33,473 nucleotides of DNA, taken from assembly GCA_000151295.1 (NCBI GenBank), contig GG745339.1:1030305-1063777 (forward strand), written 5' to 3'. Both the position numbers and the translations under genes were made by a program. Below, in pieces: positions 25,119 through 29,774 of this stretch (positions within the stretch are counted from its first letter, which is position 1; each line of letters begins with the position of its first letter). The notes under the pieces were generated by a model, which made no database searches, had not been told where the DNA came from, and saw only the letters and a list, made by a program, of their open reading frames with translations. Source of the DNA: Allomyces macrogynus ATCC 38327 (lineage: Eukaryota > Blastocladiomycota > Blastocladiomycetes > Blastocladiales > Blastocladiaceae).

Positions 25119-25950
25119 GACAATAAATCTACAGTCGATGTTGACTGCGCGTTAGCAGACAGCTCGACGCGGCAGACGGTGGGGAAATGCTGTACCCGAC
25201 GGTCGCAAACGCGAGTGGCCCCATGGCGATGCGCGTGGGCGAGCAGCACACTCGGCGCGCGGCGCGCGCGGCCGCGTTTCCGCTCATGATTTCCGGCGAG
25301 TCGATGGAGGTCAAGTCCTGTATGAGTAGACGCAGCACAACTCGAGCTGCACTCGGACGTGCTAACTTGATTACTTGGCGGCACGCTGCACGGTAAATTC
25401 AGTGCCGATACTGCTCGAGAAGAGAGAGTCGTCCCTTTCCACCAGTTCTTGTTCGGCCACGGTCGATTGGGAGCTCAAGGGTCCGGCGCGGCTGGCGTCG
25501 ATAGTGTTGCAAATCCTGGTTTGAGCCGGATTTGGACCTCGAGTGGCGAGAGGTGGCGAAGTGGCCCCAGATATGTGGGGCGTATTGGCCCGTATTTGAT
25601 TCGGCTCAAGTTACGCTTTTGCCTGGCCATGAGACAAGCCACCATTGTTTCAGACTGCCCACGGTGATGGCATGCTGCGCGATGTGCAGGACAGTCAATG
25701 AGAGACGCGTTTGGTCCTGTCATGTGCGCTCACCCTGTGATCAAAAGCTGATCTCTGATACCCTGACAGGCTAGTGCTCATGATTACAGCTAGAACTAGA
25801 TCTTGGACGCGTGTGCACAGCCCACAAGCAAGTGCGAGAGCGCTTCTGCAAGTCTTTGGTTTGAGAAACCTGGCTGGGACCTGGAAAAATCAATTACCAA
25901 ACTTCTCAACAGCAGCTTAGCTCAGGGGTTAGTTAACCTGGGTCTGACTT
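25119..25950. other. Intergenic region, left flank of the retroelement array
   Basis: This is probably the promoter region of the PhoD gene at its left end. Base composition changes toward the right: from about 25750 CpG becomes rare and TG/CA common, as in the array that follows. A tRNA-like D-arm string, TTAGCTCAGGGGTTAG, lies at 25917-25932, but no complete tRNA can be folded around it. Open frames are short and unrecognised. Confidence 0.45.
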
Positions 25951-26200
25951 TGCCACTGTGTGTACTGACAAGGTTTGTTAGCAAACTCCTTACACTGCAA
26001 TGCAACATGTGTGGGCAAGTGAGGTAATGATCCTGTTTGTCATCAGAGCCACACAGGCACTTGGGTTCACCCCTGCACTGCATACCCAGCATTTCCATAA
26101 GCATGACTTGCATCACAAGCTGGCCAAACAGCAACTGGAGCCAGAATGATGTGGCTGAGTTCTGGTTGCACAAGATGACATGTGTGAGTGTGTGATACCA
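25951..26200 (-). mobile_element. Element copy F: old, 5'-truncated non-LTR copy with zinc-finger remnant
   Basis: The left end is a decayed target motif (CACTGTGTGTACTGAC), then the shared element 3' end in complement (AAGGTTTGTTAGCAAACTCC). Beyond that it differs from the other copies. On the minus strand an open stretch contains CLCGSDDKQDHYLTCP, which resembles the zinc-finger C-terminus found after RT/RNase H in many non-LTR elements. The right border is the next target motif at 26201. It may be a related but separate subfamily, or an internally deleted copy. Confidence 0.6.
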
Positions 26201-26215
26201 GTCACCATGGTGTAG

Positions 26216-26772
26216 AGACAAGGTTTATTAGCAAACTCCTTATGCCACAGCACAGCAAGATTGCTGCTAGGAGACAGAAATATGCAAAACAAGCCTTGCA
26301 TCAGGTTGCTCAAGGGCCAAGGTGGTGGTGGCTTGCTAAAAATGGTCTGTCCAACCCTTTGCCCACTGGGAACTGAACCCAACACTCCTCAGGAACACAC
26401 AGAGCGCCATAAATGTGGACGCTCAAGGCGCCCCTGGACATGTGGTTCAGAATGCTACATCACACCCCCCCCCCCCACCTGACCAATCTGGCAAACTTGA
26501 TGGATCAGCACCTTGGAGAATTTCTGCAATGTGCTGCCAGGCTGAGAGCTGCACACAGCAAACAGCAGGAGAATGGCACGACTCATGCACAGCACAATGG
26601 TTGCATTGCAGCTCATGATAGTGATGACACAGTGGCCCATTTTGGTGGTGGGCTGAGGCCACTGGGGCTGGCAGCTGCTTGTCTCCACTCTCTGCAGCAG
26701 AAGCTGTGGGGGCCATGGCTGTTCTAGCACCAGCAGCAGGAGGATGTTGGGTATGGTGATTGTGGTGTTCCA
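26216..26772 (-). mobile_element. Element copy E: 5'-truncated non-LTR copy (about 0.56 kb)
   Basis: It lies between target motifs 26201-26215 and 26773-26787. It begins with the shared 3' end (complement of AATAAACC) and continues collinear with copy D from 26788 for several hundred bases; both share the segment around TTGGAGAATTTCTGCAA. A 12-nt C run sits at 26465-26476. The copy stops in the 3' part of the element, so it has no RT or RNase H. Confidence 0.8.
26465..26476 (+). repeat. Poly-C run
   Basis: Twelve consecutive C residues lie inside copy E. The matching place in copy D (about 27033-27045) has only short C tracts, so the run expanded after insertion or in the parent element. Confidence 0.9.
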
Positions 26773-27460
26773 GTCACTGTGGTGTAGAGACGAGGTTTAT
26801 TAGCAAACTCCTTATGCCACAGTGCAGCAAGATTGCCACTAGGAGACACAAATATGCGAAACAAGCCTTGCATCAGGTTGCTAAAGGCCCATGGTGATGG
26901 TGGCTCACTAAAATGGTCTGTCCAACCCTTCACCCACCAGAACCTGAACCCAACACTCCTCAAGAACGCACAGAGCGCCATGAAAGGGGATGCTCAAGGC
27001 GCCCCCAGACATGCAGTCCAGAATGCTACATCATGCCCCTCCACCTGACCAACCTGGCAAGCTTGCTGGGTCAGCACCTTGGAGAATTTCTGCAACATGT
27101 TGGCAGGCCAAGAGCCAAGTGCAGCAAACAGTGGGAGAATGGTGCGACTCACGCACTGCACAAAGGTCACACACAACATGGCTTGTGATGGCAGCAATGC
27201 AGTGGGCCGCATCAACAGTGGGCTGTGGCAGCAGGGGCCAGCAGTTGCTCATCTCCACCTTCAGGGGCTGTGGCCACTCCTGCACCAGCAGCAGGACAAT
27301 GACAGGCATGGCAATCATGGTGTGGCACATGAGGATGGGCTGGCCGCCCAGGTGGCAAGACTGGAGAATTGGCGACAAGTGCTTGGACATGGGGTCAGTG
27401 TAGCTCCTTCTGAATCACGGCTGAGCAGAGGTCAAACACGAGTGCTAGAATGTGTTGTGG

Positions 27461-28378
27461 TCAGGGGGGTTGCCACATCACCCTGTCTGACTGGGACGCG
27501 TCCATGGCAGGCAGGAACAACTCTCTCCACTGGGTGAGGTCATTGCACATGATTGCTGTGGATGCAATGTGAGTGAACTTGAAGTCAATGCTGTGCACCA
27601 ACTTGGCAAGCCAGAGTGCAGTCTGCAAATCCGTGGTAGTGGCGCAAATCACACAATGCACTGTCAAACCTGGTGACCCGCACATCTGCATCACAGCCCC
27701 ATCAATCACCATGCACAAATCAAGCTGCACGTCAAGTTGTGTACCCAGTGGGACATGATCATCTGTGACAAGGAGTGCAAAAAACTTGGCGCGTGTTGAG
27801 GACAAGGGACCTGGCAGCAGGTGTACTTCAATGGCACACTTGTCAGGGCCCAGGAAGTACACCCCCACACCAGCATGGTCAGCTGCCATGTCAAGAGAGC
27901 TGTCAGTGTACAATTGGATTGTGCGTGCATTGTGGCCATGGCAGACAGTCCAATCCCACTGGTATGCAACTCTGTCTGCAGCTGCCACAAGTGTGCCCAA
28001 CTGCTCATCAATCACCACGCCTGCCCCACACACCATCTCCACCTGGTGGAGAGGAAGCGTGCGGTCATCACAAATGCCACTGCGCCATTCCATGACTGCA
28101 TTGAACACACAGCAGTTGTCACAATGCACATGGGCTATGCCACTGCAGCTGTGGTCTGTCTTGTGGTGCTGTGCAATTGCCCACCGCACCTGCACAGCTC
28201 CCAACCGCATCACGACATTGTATGGCAGCACATGGTCATGCCACAGGTTGTGTGGGACTGCGTCCTCAAACAGGTACAGACCACATTCCATGGTCATGAC
28301 CTGCCAGACCACCTGCCTGCTGTGCTGCAGCTGGATGAAGTTGGGCAGCACAAGTGACAATGGGATGCGTGCGCCCAC
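27461..28378 (-). pseudogene. RNase H domain of the non-LTR element
   Basis: This is an open minus-strand stretch of about 305 residues. RNase H features are LYTDSSLD (first catalytic Asp), GVGVYFLGP, LPGPLSSTRAKFFAL, a VPLG-containing segment and a later VIDG. The second catalytic position, normally Glu in TRAEF, is Lys here, which would inactivate the enzyme. The surrounding order (post-RT upstream, long 3' part downstream) fits RNase H-bearing LINE clades. It has no start of its own; it is part of the element's second ORF. Confidence 0.8.
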
Positions 28379-29215
28379 TCACACAAGTGAGAACTCATTG
28401 TGCACATTGAGAAGTGACAGCCCATGGCCTGCCATTATTGGAACAAGCTGCTCAAACCATGCATGTGGCCCTTTCTGATCAGTGTTGATGTACAGTTTGG
28501 TGAGGTCTGGGCGTGACAGCAGCAAGACCAGGCACAACGTCCTGGCCTGTAGTAGCCTGATCTTGACACGCATGGGCACACCGCCAGGACCACAGTCCTG
28601 GAGCATGACAGCAATGTCCATCATGTGCTGCACAACAATGAGGTCCTCAAATGAGCTGAGACCTACAAGCGACTGCAGGTAGAGTGCAGCCAATGGGAAC
28701 AGGTATGGCAAATGGAACTTGGAGCAGACCAGGACCCAGATTGACACGTCCAGCCACTTGAGCTGGCTGTGTGTTGGGACCATGATGCACATGTGGTATG
28801 TGGCCATGGGCAGGATCACCACATTCATGAGGTGGACAGCAGCCTTGCCCATGATCTGACACAGCTTGAGCAGCTCAAGACCACACTTGATCTCATCATG
28901 CATGGCACAGAACCCCATAGCCAGTGACACAGTCCAATTCATGAAGATGCCCAGATACCTGAACGACGTACCAACCCAGGGGACAGCAATGCCACTGACC
29001 TCCAGCTGCATTGCTGCTTGCTGTGCATGTTGATGTTCAGCACTGCGCCCTTGGCTGGGTTGGCTCAAATCTTGGCCAGCTCGTTGAACTGGTTGACCAG
29101 GTCCATCATCTTTCCCAAACCAGCGCGACTGCACATGTAAAATGCAGCGTCATCCATAAACGCAACAGCCATGACCTGCAGGCGCATGACCTCTAGCCCC
29201 CCGTGCAGGTGCGGG
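28379..29215 (-). pseudogene. Reverse transcriptase (3' half) and post-RT region of the non-LTR element, broken
   Basis: At the right end one frame reads VMAVAFMDDAAFYMCSRAG, which carries the RT catalytic FMDD box. It then hits TGA in AKI*ANPAKGAVLNI (CGA would restore Arg). Near 29010 the reading frame shifts and continues open to 28379 with VPWVGTSFRYLGIFMNWT, a typical post-RT YLG block. The upstream RT motifs are absent because the element is truncated at 29219. Confidence 0.78.
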
Positions 29216-29234
29216 CACAGTCACTGTGGTGTAG

Positions 29235-29458
29235 AGATAGGTTGCATTTGCAGAGCAACTCCTTGTGCCACGGTATGACAAAATTGCTGCTAGGAAGCAC
29301 CAATATGCGAAAACGCCTTGCCACAGGCCCCTGAGCAGTGGTGGCTCACAACAACAAAACCCATCCAACCTGTCACCCGCTCGACGACTACTGAAACTCC
29401 ACGAGAACGCATGGAGCGGCCCTGGTGGGGGCACCCTAATCTGAGGAGGGCGCCTCCA
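29235..29458 (-). mobile_element. Element copy C: diverged 3' end of a related element
   Basis: It lies between the target motifs at 29220 and 29459. Blocks such as GCTGCTAGGA and CAATATGCGAAAACGCCTTG align with the other copies, but the first bases after the motif differ (AGATAGGTTGCATTTGCAGAGC instead of AGACGAGGTTTATTAGC). It also keeps more CpG than copies D-F. It looks like a separate subfamily that uses the same target. Confidence 0.7.
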
Positions 29459-29473
29459 GTCACCATGGTGTAG

Positions 29474-29647
29474 AGACGAGGTTTATTAGCAAACTCCTTA
29501 TGCTGCAGTGCGACAAGATTGCTGCTAGGAGACATAAATATGCGAAACAAGCCTTGCATCGGGCCGCTCAGGGAACCATGGTGGTGGTGGCTCGCTAAAA
29601 TTGGTCTGTCCAACCCTTCGCCCACCAGAACCCGGACCCAACAGGCA
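29474..29647 (-). mobile_element. Element copy B: 3' end only (about 175 bp)
   Basis: It lies between motifs 29459-29473 and 29648-29662. It carries the shared 3' module in complement: AGACGAGGTTTATTAGC, the GCTGCTAGGAGACA block, ATGCGAAACAAGCC, then GGTGGTGGTGGCT and TGGTCTGTCCAACCC. It stops exactly where the next target motif starts. It matches copies D and E at nearly every position over the first 150 bp. Confidence 0.8.
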
Positions 29648-29662
29648 GTCACCGTGGTGTAG

Positions 29663-29701
29663 AGACGAGGTTTATTAGCAAACTCCTAATGCCGCAGTGC
29701 A
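29663..29701 (-). mobile_element. Element copy A: about 39 bp of element 3' end
   Basis: Only the last bases of the element (complement AGACGAGGTTTATTAGC and AACTCC) remain between two identical 18-nt copies of GCAGTCACCGTGGTGTAG at 29645-29662 and 29699-29716. The second copy is the head of the intact tRNA gene. This is the clearest target-site duplication in the array and looks like the youngest event. Confidence 0.82.
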
Positions 29702-29774
29702 GTCACCGTGGTGTAGTGGTTATCACGTGAGTCTCACACACTCAAGGTCGCCAGTTCGATCCTGGCCGGTGACA
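29702..29774 (+). tRNA. tRNA-Val (anticodon CAC)
   Basis: The cloverleaf folds fully. The acceptor stem pairs GTCACCG (29702-29708) with CGGTGAC (29767-29773), followed by discriminator A. The D arm is GTG/CAC with TAGTGGTTAT between. The anticodon stem TGAGT/ACTCA encloses the loop CTCACAC, with CAC at 29735-29737. The variable loop is 5 nt. The T stem GCCAG/CTGGC encloses the loop TTCGATC. A-box (TGGTGTAGTGG) and B-box (GTTCGATCC) are intact. There is no intron and CCA is not encoded. A T5 run lies about 50 bp downstream. Its first 15 nt are repeated upstream at each retroelement junction. Confidence 0.94.

Follow-up and report, generated by a model that had tools for sequence, protein, structure and literature searches.

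Target-specific long interspersed nuclear elements (LINEs) are thought to limit the harm they do by hitting multicopy genes, some of which get broken. Here we describe LINE insertions at a transfer RNA (tRNA) gene, tRNA-Val, in a stretch of 33,473 nucleotides (nt) from Allomyces macrogynus ATCC 38327 (assembly GCA_000151295.1, contig GG745339.1, positions 1,030,305 to 1,063,777, forward strand), referred to below as the window, together with related copies elsewhere in the 54-Mb assembly. From the sequences we consider it highly probable (roughly 0.93) that the A box of certain tRNA genes is where these LINEs insert, and that insertion regenerates both the gene and the target.

The following comparison draws on sections of the papers cited. 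LINEs in tRNA genes are reported in a paper on restriction-like-endonuclease lineages: NeSL-1_TV (tRNA-Pro), LIN15_SM (tRNA-Arg) and LIN25_SM (tRNA-Glu) (PMC4640811). Like the Allomyces element, these are non-LTR (long terminal repeat) retrotransposons with a fixed target within a tRNA gene; unlike them, the Allomyces element has an apurinic-like endonuclease (APE) and RNase H, occurs in several tRNA types and comes with a duplication that would rebuild the gene. NLTR-A of Dictyostelium purpureum is an RNase-H-bearing LINE with copies 2–6 bp upstream of the first tRNA nucleotide (PMC5006619). It shares APE, reverse transcriptase (RT) and RNase H with the Allomyces elements (PMC5006619; APE according to PMC5911963), and its position is close to that of their 5′ ends (~0–5 bp upstream). 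It is reported as upstream targeting, however, and section 9 of PMC5006619 describes no duplicated start of the tRNA (tRNA head). NLTR-A may be the same mechanism viewed from one side. A fresh look is warranted at NLTR-A and other elements placed a few bp upstream of tRNA genes, in case their far side carries a duplicated tRNA head.

TRE5 and TRE3 of Dictyostelium discoideum are likewise APE-type LINEs directed at tRNA genes, and TRE5 is oriented opposite to the tRNA, as reported in PMC5911963. Unlike the Allomyces elements, they insert outside the gene (40–54 bp upstream or 40–150 bp downstream) and carry a zinc finger instead of RNase H (PMC5911963). Identity with TRE was ruled out, since the insertion described here lies after nt 14–17 inside the tRNA and not at a distance outside it. 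Among Dada DNA transposons, five lineages are described as hitting nt 8–13 of tRNA genes and others as lying elsewhere in tRNA genes (PMC8869645, PMC3706591). These share the target inside the A box and the use of several isotypes, but have a DDE transposase and 6–7-bp duplications (PMC8869645, PMC3706591); duplications of 14–20 nt, along with RT and APE domains, excluded Dada. R1/R2 in 28S rRNA genes (PMC3706591) and Keno/Utopia in U2 snRNA genes (PMC4640811) are also target-specific LINEs of multicopy RNA genes, but their insertion, as given in these sources, disrupts the gene unit and is tolerated because the units are many.

The original prediction had supposed that an element inside a tRNA-Val gene of a zoosporic fungus, stacked into an array, would be new, which the elements in tRNA-Pro, -Arg and -Glu partly anticipate. 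No APE-type LINE inside a tRNA gene, or one rebuilding it, was found in the literature searched, which did not include Repbase reports and most subscription papers. Target-specific LINEs and LINEs in tRNA genes are already known from these sources; the combination of an APE-type element in the A box, several isotypes and a gene-restoring duplication appears to be new.

The tRNA-Val array of the window

ARAGORN found a single tRNA in the window, an intact tRNA-Val (CAC) on the plus strand. Its 15-nt head, GTCACCGTGGTGTAG, was located on the same strand with no mismatch at 29702 and 29648, and with one mismatch each at 29459, 29220, 26773 and 26201. Six such heads compare with 0.94 expected by chance (≤3 mismatches), and none of 100 shuffles reached six. 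All five upstream copies had been predicted, as had a decayed seventh near 25954. Five of the six heads run directly into a minus-strand LINE 3′ end, the sixth being the start of the intact tRNA-Val. After each upstream head the sequence switches, as predicted, to AGAYRAGGTT, except at 29235, where it is AGATAGGTT, from another family. The features of the array are listed below.

25795–25931, plus strand: ancestral 5′ flank of the tRNA-Val gene; 74% identity over 137 bp to L090 (C62), 70% to L004 (C38)
25952–25965, plus strand: decayed tRNA-Val head, the oldest (seventh); by reading, GCCACTGTGTGTAC against GTCACCGTGGTGTAG
25966–26200, minus strand: unit 1, family A LINE fragment with internal deletion; BLAST to the C12 copy gives 48 bp of 3′ end and a 162-bp internal piece
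26201–26215, plus strand: tRNA-Val head copy, 1 mismatch
26216–26772, minus strand: unit 2, family A LINE, 5′-truncated; 88.3% to the C12 3′ end
26773–26787, plus strand: tRNA-Val head copy, 1 mismatch
26788–29219, minus strand: unit 3, family A LINE, 5′-truncated in the RT region and internally deleted, with decayed RT and RNase H frames; 89.7% to the C12 3′ end
29220–29234, plus strand: tRNA-Val head copy, 1 mismatch
29235–29458, minus strand: unit 4, truncated family C element; 28-nt 3′ end exact at C37, 1 mismatch at C72; 76.5% to the family A 3′ end
29459–29473, plus strand: tRNA-Val head copy, 1 mismatch
29474–29647, minus strand: unit 5, truncated family A LINE, 174 bp; 93.4% to the C12 3′ end
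29648–29662, plus strand: exact tRNA-Val head copy, within an 18-nt exact duplication with 29699–29716
29663–29701, minus strand: unit 6, insertion adjoining the tRNA, 39 bp of family A; 94.7% to the C12 3′ end over 38 aligned bases
29702–29774, plus strand: intact tRNA-Val (CAC), by ARAGORN; 100% over 74 bp to L090 and L004

The identity of the family A units to the C12 3′ end rises toward the tRNA (85.0, 88.3, 89.7, 93.4 and 94.7%), the first and last values being based on just 40 and 38 aligned bases. Unit lengths range from 39 bp to 2.4 kb, and the truncation points are all different. The sole differences of the four older heads (26201, 26773, 29220, 29459) from the intact tRNA are CpG to TpG or CpA. 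Such changes are the expected outcome of methyl-cytosine decay or of a process like repeat-induced point mutation (RIP).

Sites without an insert were identified at C62 (L090) and C38 (L004), where flanks homologous to 25795–25931 lie directly 5′ of tRNA-Val. Because their right flanks have no match to the window beyond the tRNA, L090 and L004 are paralogous sites, not alleles. In addition, a leader of ~35–40 bp with a D-arm-like hairpin (e.g. GCTTAGCTCAGTGGTTAAGC), resembling a tRNA 5′ half, lies directly 5′ of several tRNA-Val genes (window 25911–25950; L002–L005, L007, L090).

Placement of element copies at tRNA genes

When window positions 26779–26979 were used as the query, at least 30 matches were obtained in the assembly. 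The 30 matches of this first search merged into 22 family A sites, and at 11 of these the intact tRNA that the head predicts was found in the correct orientation at the far end (C64, C40:262k, C61:234k, C12, C56, C70, C46, C53, C57, C37 and C14). Complete far-end tRNAs also stand at further family B and C sites. That query included 9 nt of the tRNA head; the count derived from it (22/30 with a head at ≤3 mismatches) was replaced by one for which, to avoid bias, the queries were element 3′ ends without tRNA letters. The element-only search returned 32 matches (17 of family A, 12 of B and 3 of C). A tRNA head (≤3 mismatches) adjoined 27 of them: 16/17 for A, 8/12 for B and 3/3 for C. In a background sample of every third position of loci L009–L062, taken on both strands with true junctions included, heads occurred at 190 of 110,272 positions (0.17%), so the observed rate is several hundredfold above background. 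Hence, most copies with an intact 3′ end sit at one tRNA position and not at unrelated sites: the element is a site-specific LINE in tRNA genes.

The heads were then compared with the tRNA at each locus. Val heads matched the local tRNA in the window and at C40. At C37, the rare Val start GTCAACATGG is found in the two upstream heads as well as in the intact tRNA, and at C72, which has the Val variant GACAGCGTGG, heads and intact tRNA have GACAGC(A/G)TGG in common. Head and intact gene were both tRNA-Gln at C61, C14 and C12, tRNA-Pro at C70 and C57 (two Pro heads), tRNA-Ala at C46, C53 and C56, and tRNA-Met(CAT) at C67, C40 and C75. We take this tRNA-Met to be of the initiator type from A1-U72 and the T-loop AUCGAAA. 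By family, the assigned heads are Val, Gln, Pro and Ala for A, and Met in 8/12 for B, the other four being unassigned. The target given in the original prediction, tRNA-Val, was therefore right, with three variants, but too narrow.

Two loci deserve separate mention. At C56 (L016 1322–1392), there is another tRNA-Ala call (anticodon CGC) immediately 5′ of the hit head, so that two tRNA-Ala genes may be neighbours. At C71:232,200–233,950 (L034, L037, L094), family A and B pieces form an array whose heads resemble GCGCC(A/G)TTGGTG and which includes the 3′ half of a decayed tRNA. Judged from this decayed gene, the target of the C71 array was probably an inactivated tRNA-Gly gene.

Element structure, junctions and duplications

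The element was characterized from its better-kept copies, as no Pfam domains were found in the decayed open reading frame (ORF) pieces of the window copy. A protein search with an RT piece of the window copy gave 10 matches, of which the window was one; some of the 10 lie in long open frames. Both copies scanned by Pfam, C12 and C40, contained the APE, RT and RNase H domains: PF00078 (reverse transcriptase) with E values of 2.9e-15 and 1.7e-15, PF03372 (apurinic-like endonuclease) with 1.6e-8 and 4.9e-8, respectively, and PF00075. The C40 frame also matched R2 and LINE-1 proteins and RNase H among PDB sequences. In both copies ORF2 is preceded by an ORF1 with a CCHC motif, read by eye. The 3′ end is fixed, 5′ truncation is variable and no LTRs were seen. 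By its RT and APE domains and this pattern of ends, the element is an APE-type non-LTR retrotransposon. The predicted repeated minus-strand insertion of non-LTR elements in the D-arm region is supported by the 27/32 placement and by heads that change with the local tRNA; neither of the two outcomes named beforehand as refuting it was observed. A restriction-like-endonuclease (NeSL/R2-type) LINE was ruled out by the APE domain; a second endonuclease was not specifically searched for. The domain order APE-RT-RNase H is compatible with Tad1 or another named RNase-H-bearing clade but does not decide the matter. The sole named source of protein relatives was Blastocladiella emersonii (2 of 15 hits, identity 42% and 38%), in keeping with the zoosporic fungus of the original prediction. 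The relatives of an ATPase encoded in the window were scattered over fungi and prokaryotes.

There are at least three element families (A, B and C) and not one, as the original prediction had implied. Three copies were followed over their whole length: C12 (7.94 kb, family A), and C40 and C75 (~7.8 kb, family B; 91.8% identical). A complete tRNA lies at the 5′ end of each, Gln for C12 and Met for C40 and C75. The C12 copy changes reading frame, and in the C40 copy a stop separates the endonuclease part from the RT part; the frames were left unmended. A 3′-end tree of 16 family A copies, with a single B copy as root, had poor resolution and no clear grouping by target tRNA, and was not used.

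The insert junction falls after nt 15 in tRNA-Val, -Gln and -Pro (GTGTAG^TGG), after nt 17 in Ala (CAGTG^G) and after nt 14 in Met (GCGCA^GG). Uninterrupted duplications were read in 11 of 20 junction pairs (18, 17, 17, 17, 18, 15, 20, 18, 17, 16 and 14 nt). The C40 Met pair, whose ends were aligned one base out of register and which has tandem heads on the 5′ side, is not included in the duplication count. Five pairs of heads were compared within the window: 29648/29702 (18 nt) and 26773/29220 (17 nt) are uninterrupted, and in the other three the duplication is broken by CpG changes. The predicted target duplication of 15–18 bp compares with a range of 14–20 nt read here. The duplications begin 0 to 5 nt 5′ of tRNA +1 and extend into the A box. 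With that start, the insert borders at its far end on a complete tRNA gene. This start point, with the intact tRNAs at 11/22 family A sites, agrees with the prediction that each event restores the complete tRNA and its target.

At their 5′ ends, the long copies (C12, C40, C75) have in common a CAAGTTAGG stretch with G runs, followed by extra tRNA heads before the complete tRNA. The C12 copy, which sits in tRNA-Gln, has an extra tRNA-Val start (L084, just above 123230), and C40 and C75 have tandem Met starts at their 5′ junctions (L085, L086). Transcription from a donor tRNA locus followed by reinsertion is a plausible source of these heads; slippage during insertion is an alternative.

Proposed mechanism and competing explanations

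In the mechanism that we propose, APE-type LINEs, with an ORF1 carrying CCHC and an ORF2 carrying endonuclease, RT and RNase H, would target one point in the D-arm/A box. The endonuclease would first nick the tRNA-sense strand after nt 14–17, and the nicked 3′ end would act as primer for copying the element RNA, which has a fixed 3′ end and no poly(A), into cDNA; we infer such target-primed reverse transcription from the junctions. The second strand would then be nicked near the first tRNA nucleotide, and fill-in of the 14–20-nt stagger would duplicate the entire 5′ end of the tRNA gene. As a consequence, the insert would abut a tRNA gene that is whole, its two internal promoter boxes included, and presumably still transcribed. 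Because the target would be renewed at each event, insertions would pile up before the tRNA, the oldest furthest off.

Several points weigh against this reading. No recognized head was present at 5/32 matches (C69:1181670, C49, C57:689089, C71:233902 and C74), of which C71 sits amid other heads and a decayed, tRNA-Gly-like tRNA. The reference heads were taken from tRNAs at the same loci, and two of these heads joined the set only once a first count had been made; moreover, the 32 matches are partly non-independent, with 4 of the 17 family A matches lying inside the window. A matching intact tRNA was not seen at 11/22 family A sites, where the search mostly covered ~1.5 kb on the downstream side; at C25 a tRNA-Ser follows downstream, and the left flank matches no reference head. 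Of the junction pairs, 8/20 are broken by substitutions and one was compared out of frame. Finally, the empty sites are paralogues with 70–74% identity on the left side only.

A possible but doubtful variant keeps the same insertion mechanism and lets the site be chosen mainly via RNA polymerase III (Pol III) factors (TFIIIC/TFIIIB) on the A box, and not through recognition of the DNA sequence by the endonuclease. In its favour, the hits in several isotypes fall at almost the same A-box position, family A and B pieces occur together at the C71 locus, and TRE5-A of Dictyostelium is reported to require box B and to have an ORF1 protein that binds TFIIIB (PMC5911963). However, the junction falls at one base per tRNA type and the assigned heads differ between families, as if the sequence itself were being read.

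Tandem duplication or unequal crossing-over of a single insertion would also yield an array, and head-element units do stand in tandem at C64, C57 and C61. This is very improbable, as single insertions with duplications occur at other tRNA genes; the window array itself fits serial insertion into a renewed target and not tandem duplication, because its units differ in length, divergence and family, and each has a truncation point of its own.

The repeated co-occurrence of head and element 3′ end, with an A box inside the head, could instead point to the 5′ part of a tRNA-derived short interspersed nuclear element (SINE) spread along with the element 3′ end, the alternative named in the original prediction. 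It has next to no chance of being right: the head is not constant but varies by locus with the local tRNA, rare Val variants included, the far end is a full tRNA of the matching kind, what repeats is a protein-coding LINE's 3′ end in inverted orientation, and heads of different tRNA types are found on one element family. The spread of heads by gene conversion after one ancient insertion is scarcely tenable, for though tRNA genes are able to convert one another, each locus read has 5′-truncation points and flanks of its own.

Returning to gene-restoring insertion, we lean slightly towards a broader reading, in which the stagger of the LINE fits tRNA anatomy, its two nicks lying in the A box and close to the first nucleotide. 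Inserts, full-length or truncated, would then rebuild a Pol III gene and renew their own target, and tRNA genes, even the initiator-type tRNA-Met, would serve as unlimited landing pads. The arrays would be a natural ordered record of insertion history, and the extra 5′ heads (Val in the C12 Gln copy, tandem Met at C40 and C75) a record of the donor gene. Such insertion would allow testing how LINE endonucleases place the second-strand cut, and would make the element proteins candidates for insertion into tRNA genes without gene loss.

An Rfam tRNA search scored 63 of 794 candidates and is unfit for claims on tRNA density or absence. At C5:41,499–64,768, tRNA gene groups recur every ~6.43 kb; the repeat may be one of tRNA genes in tandem, or it may be of organelle or rDNA type.

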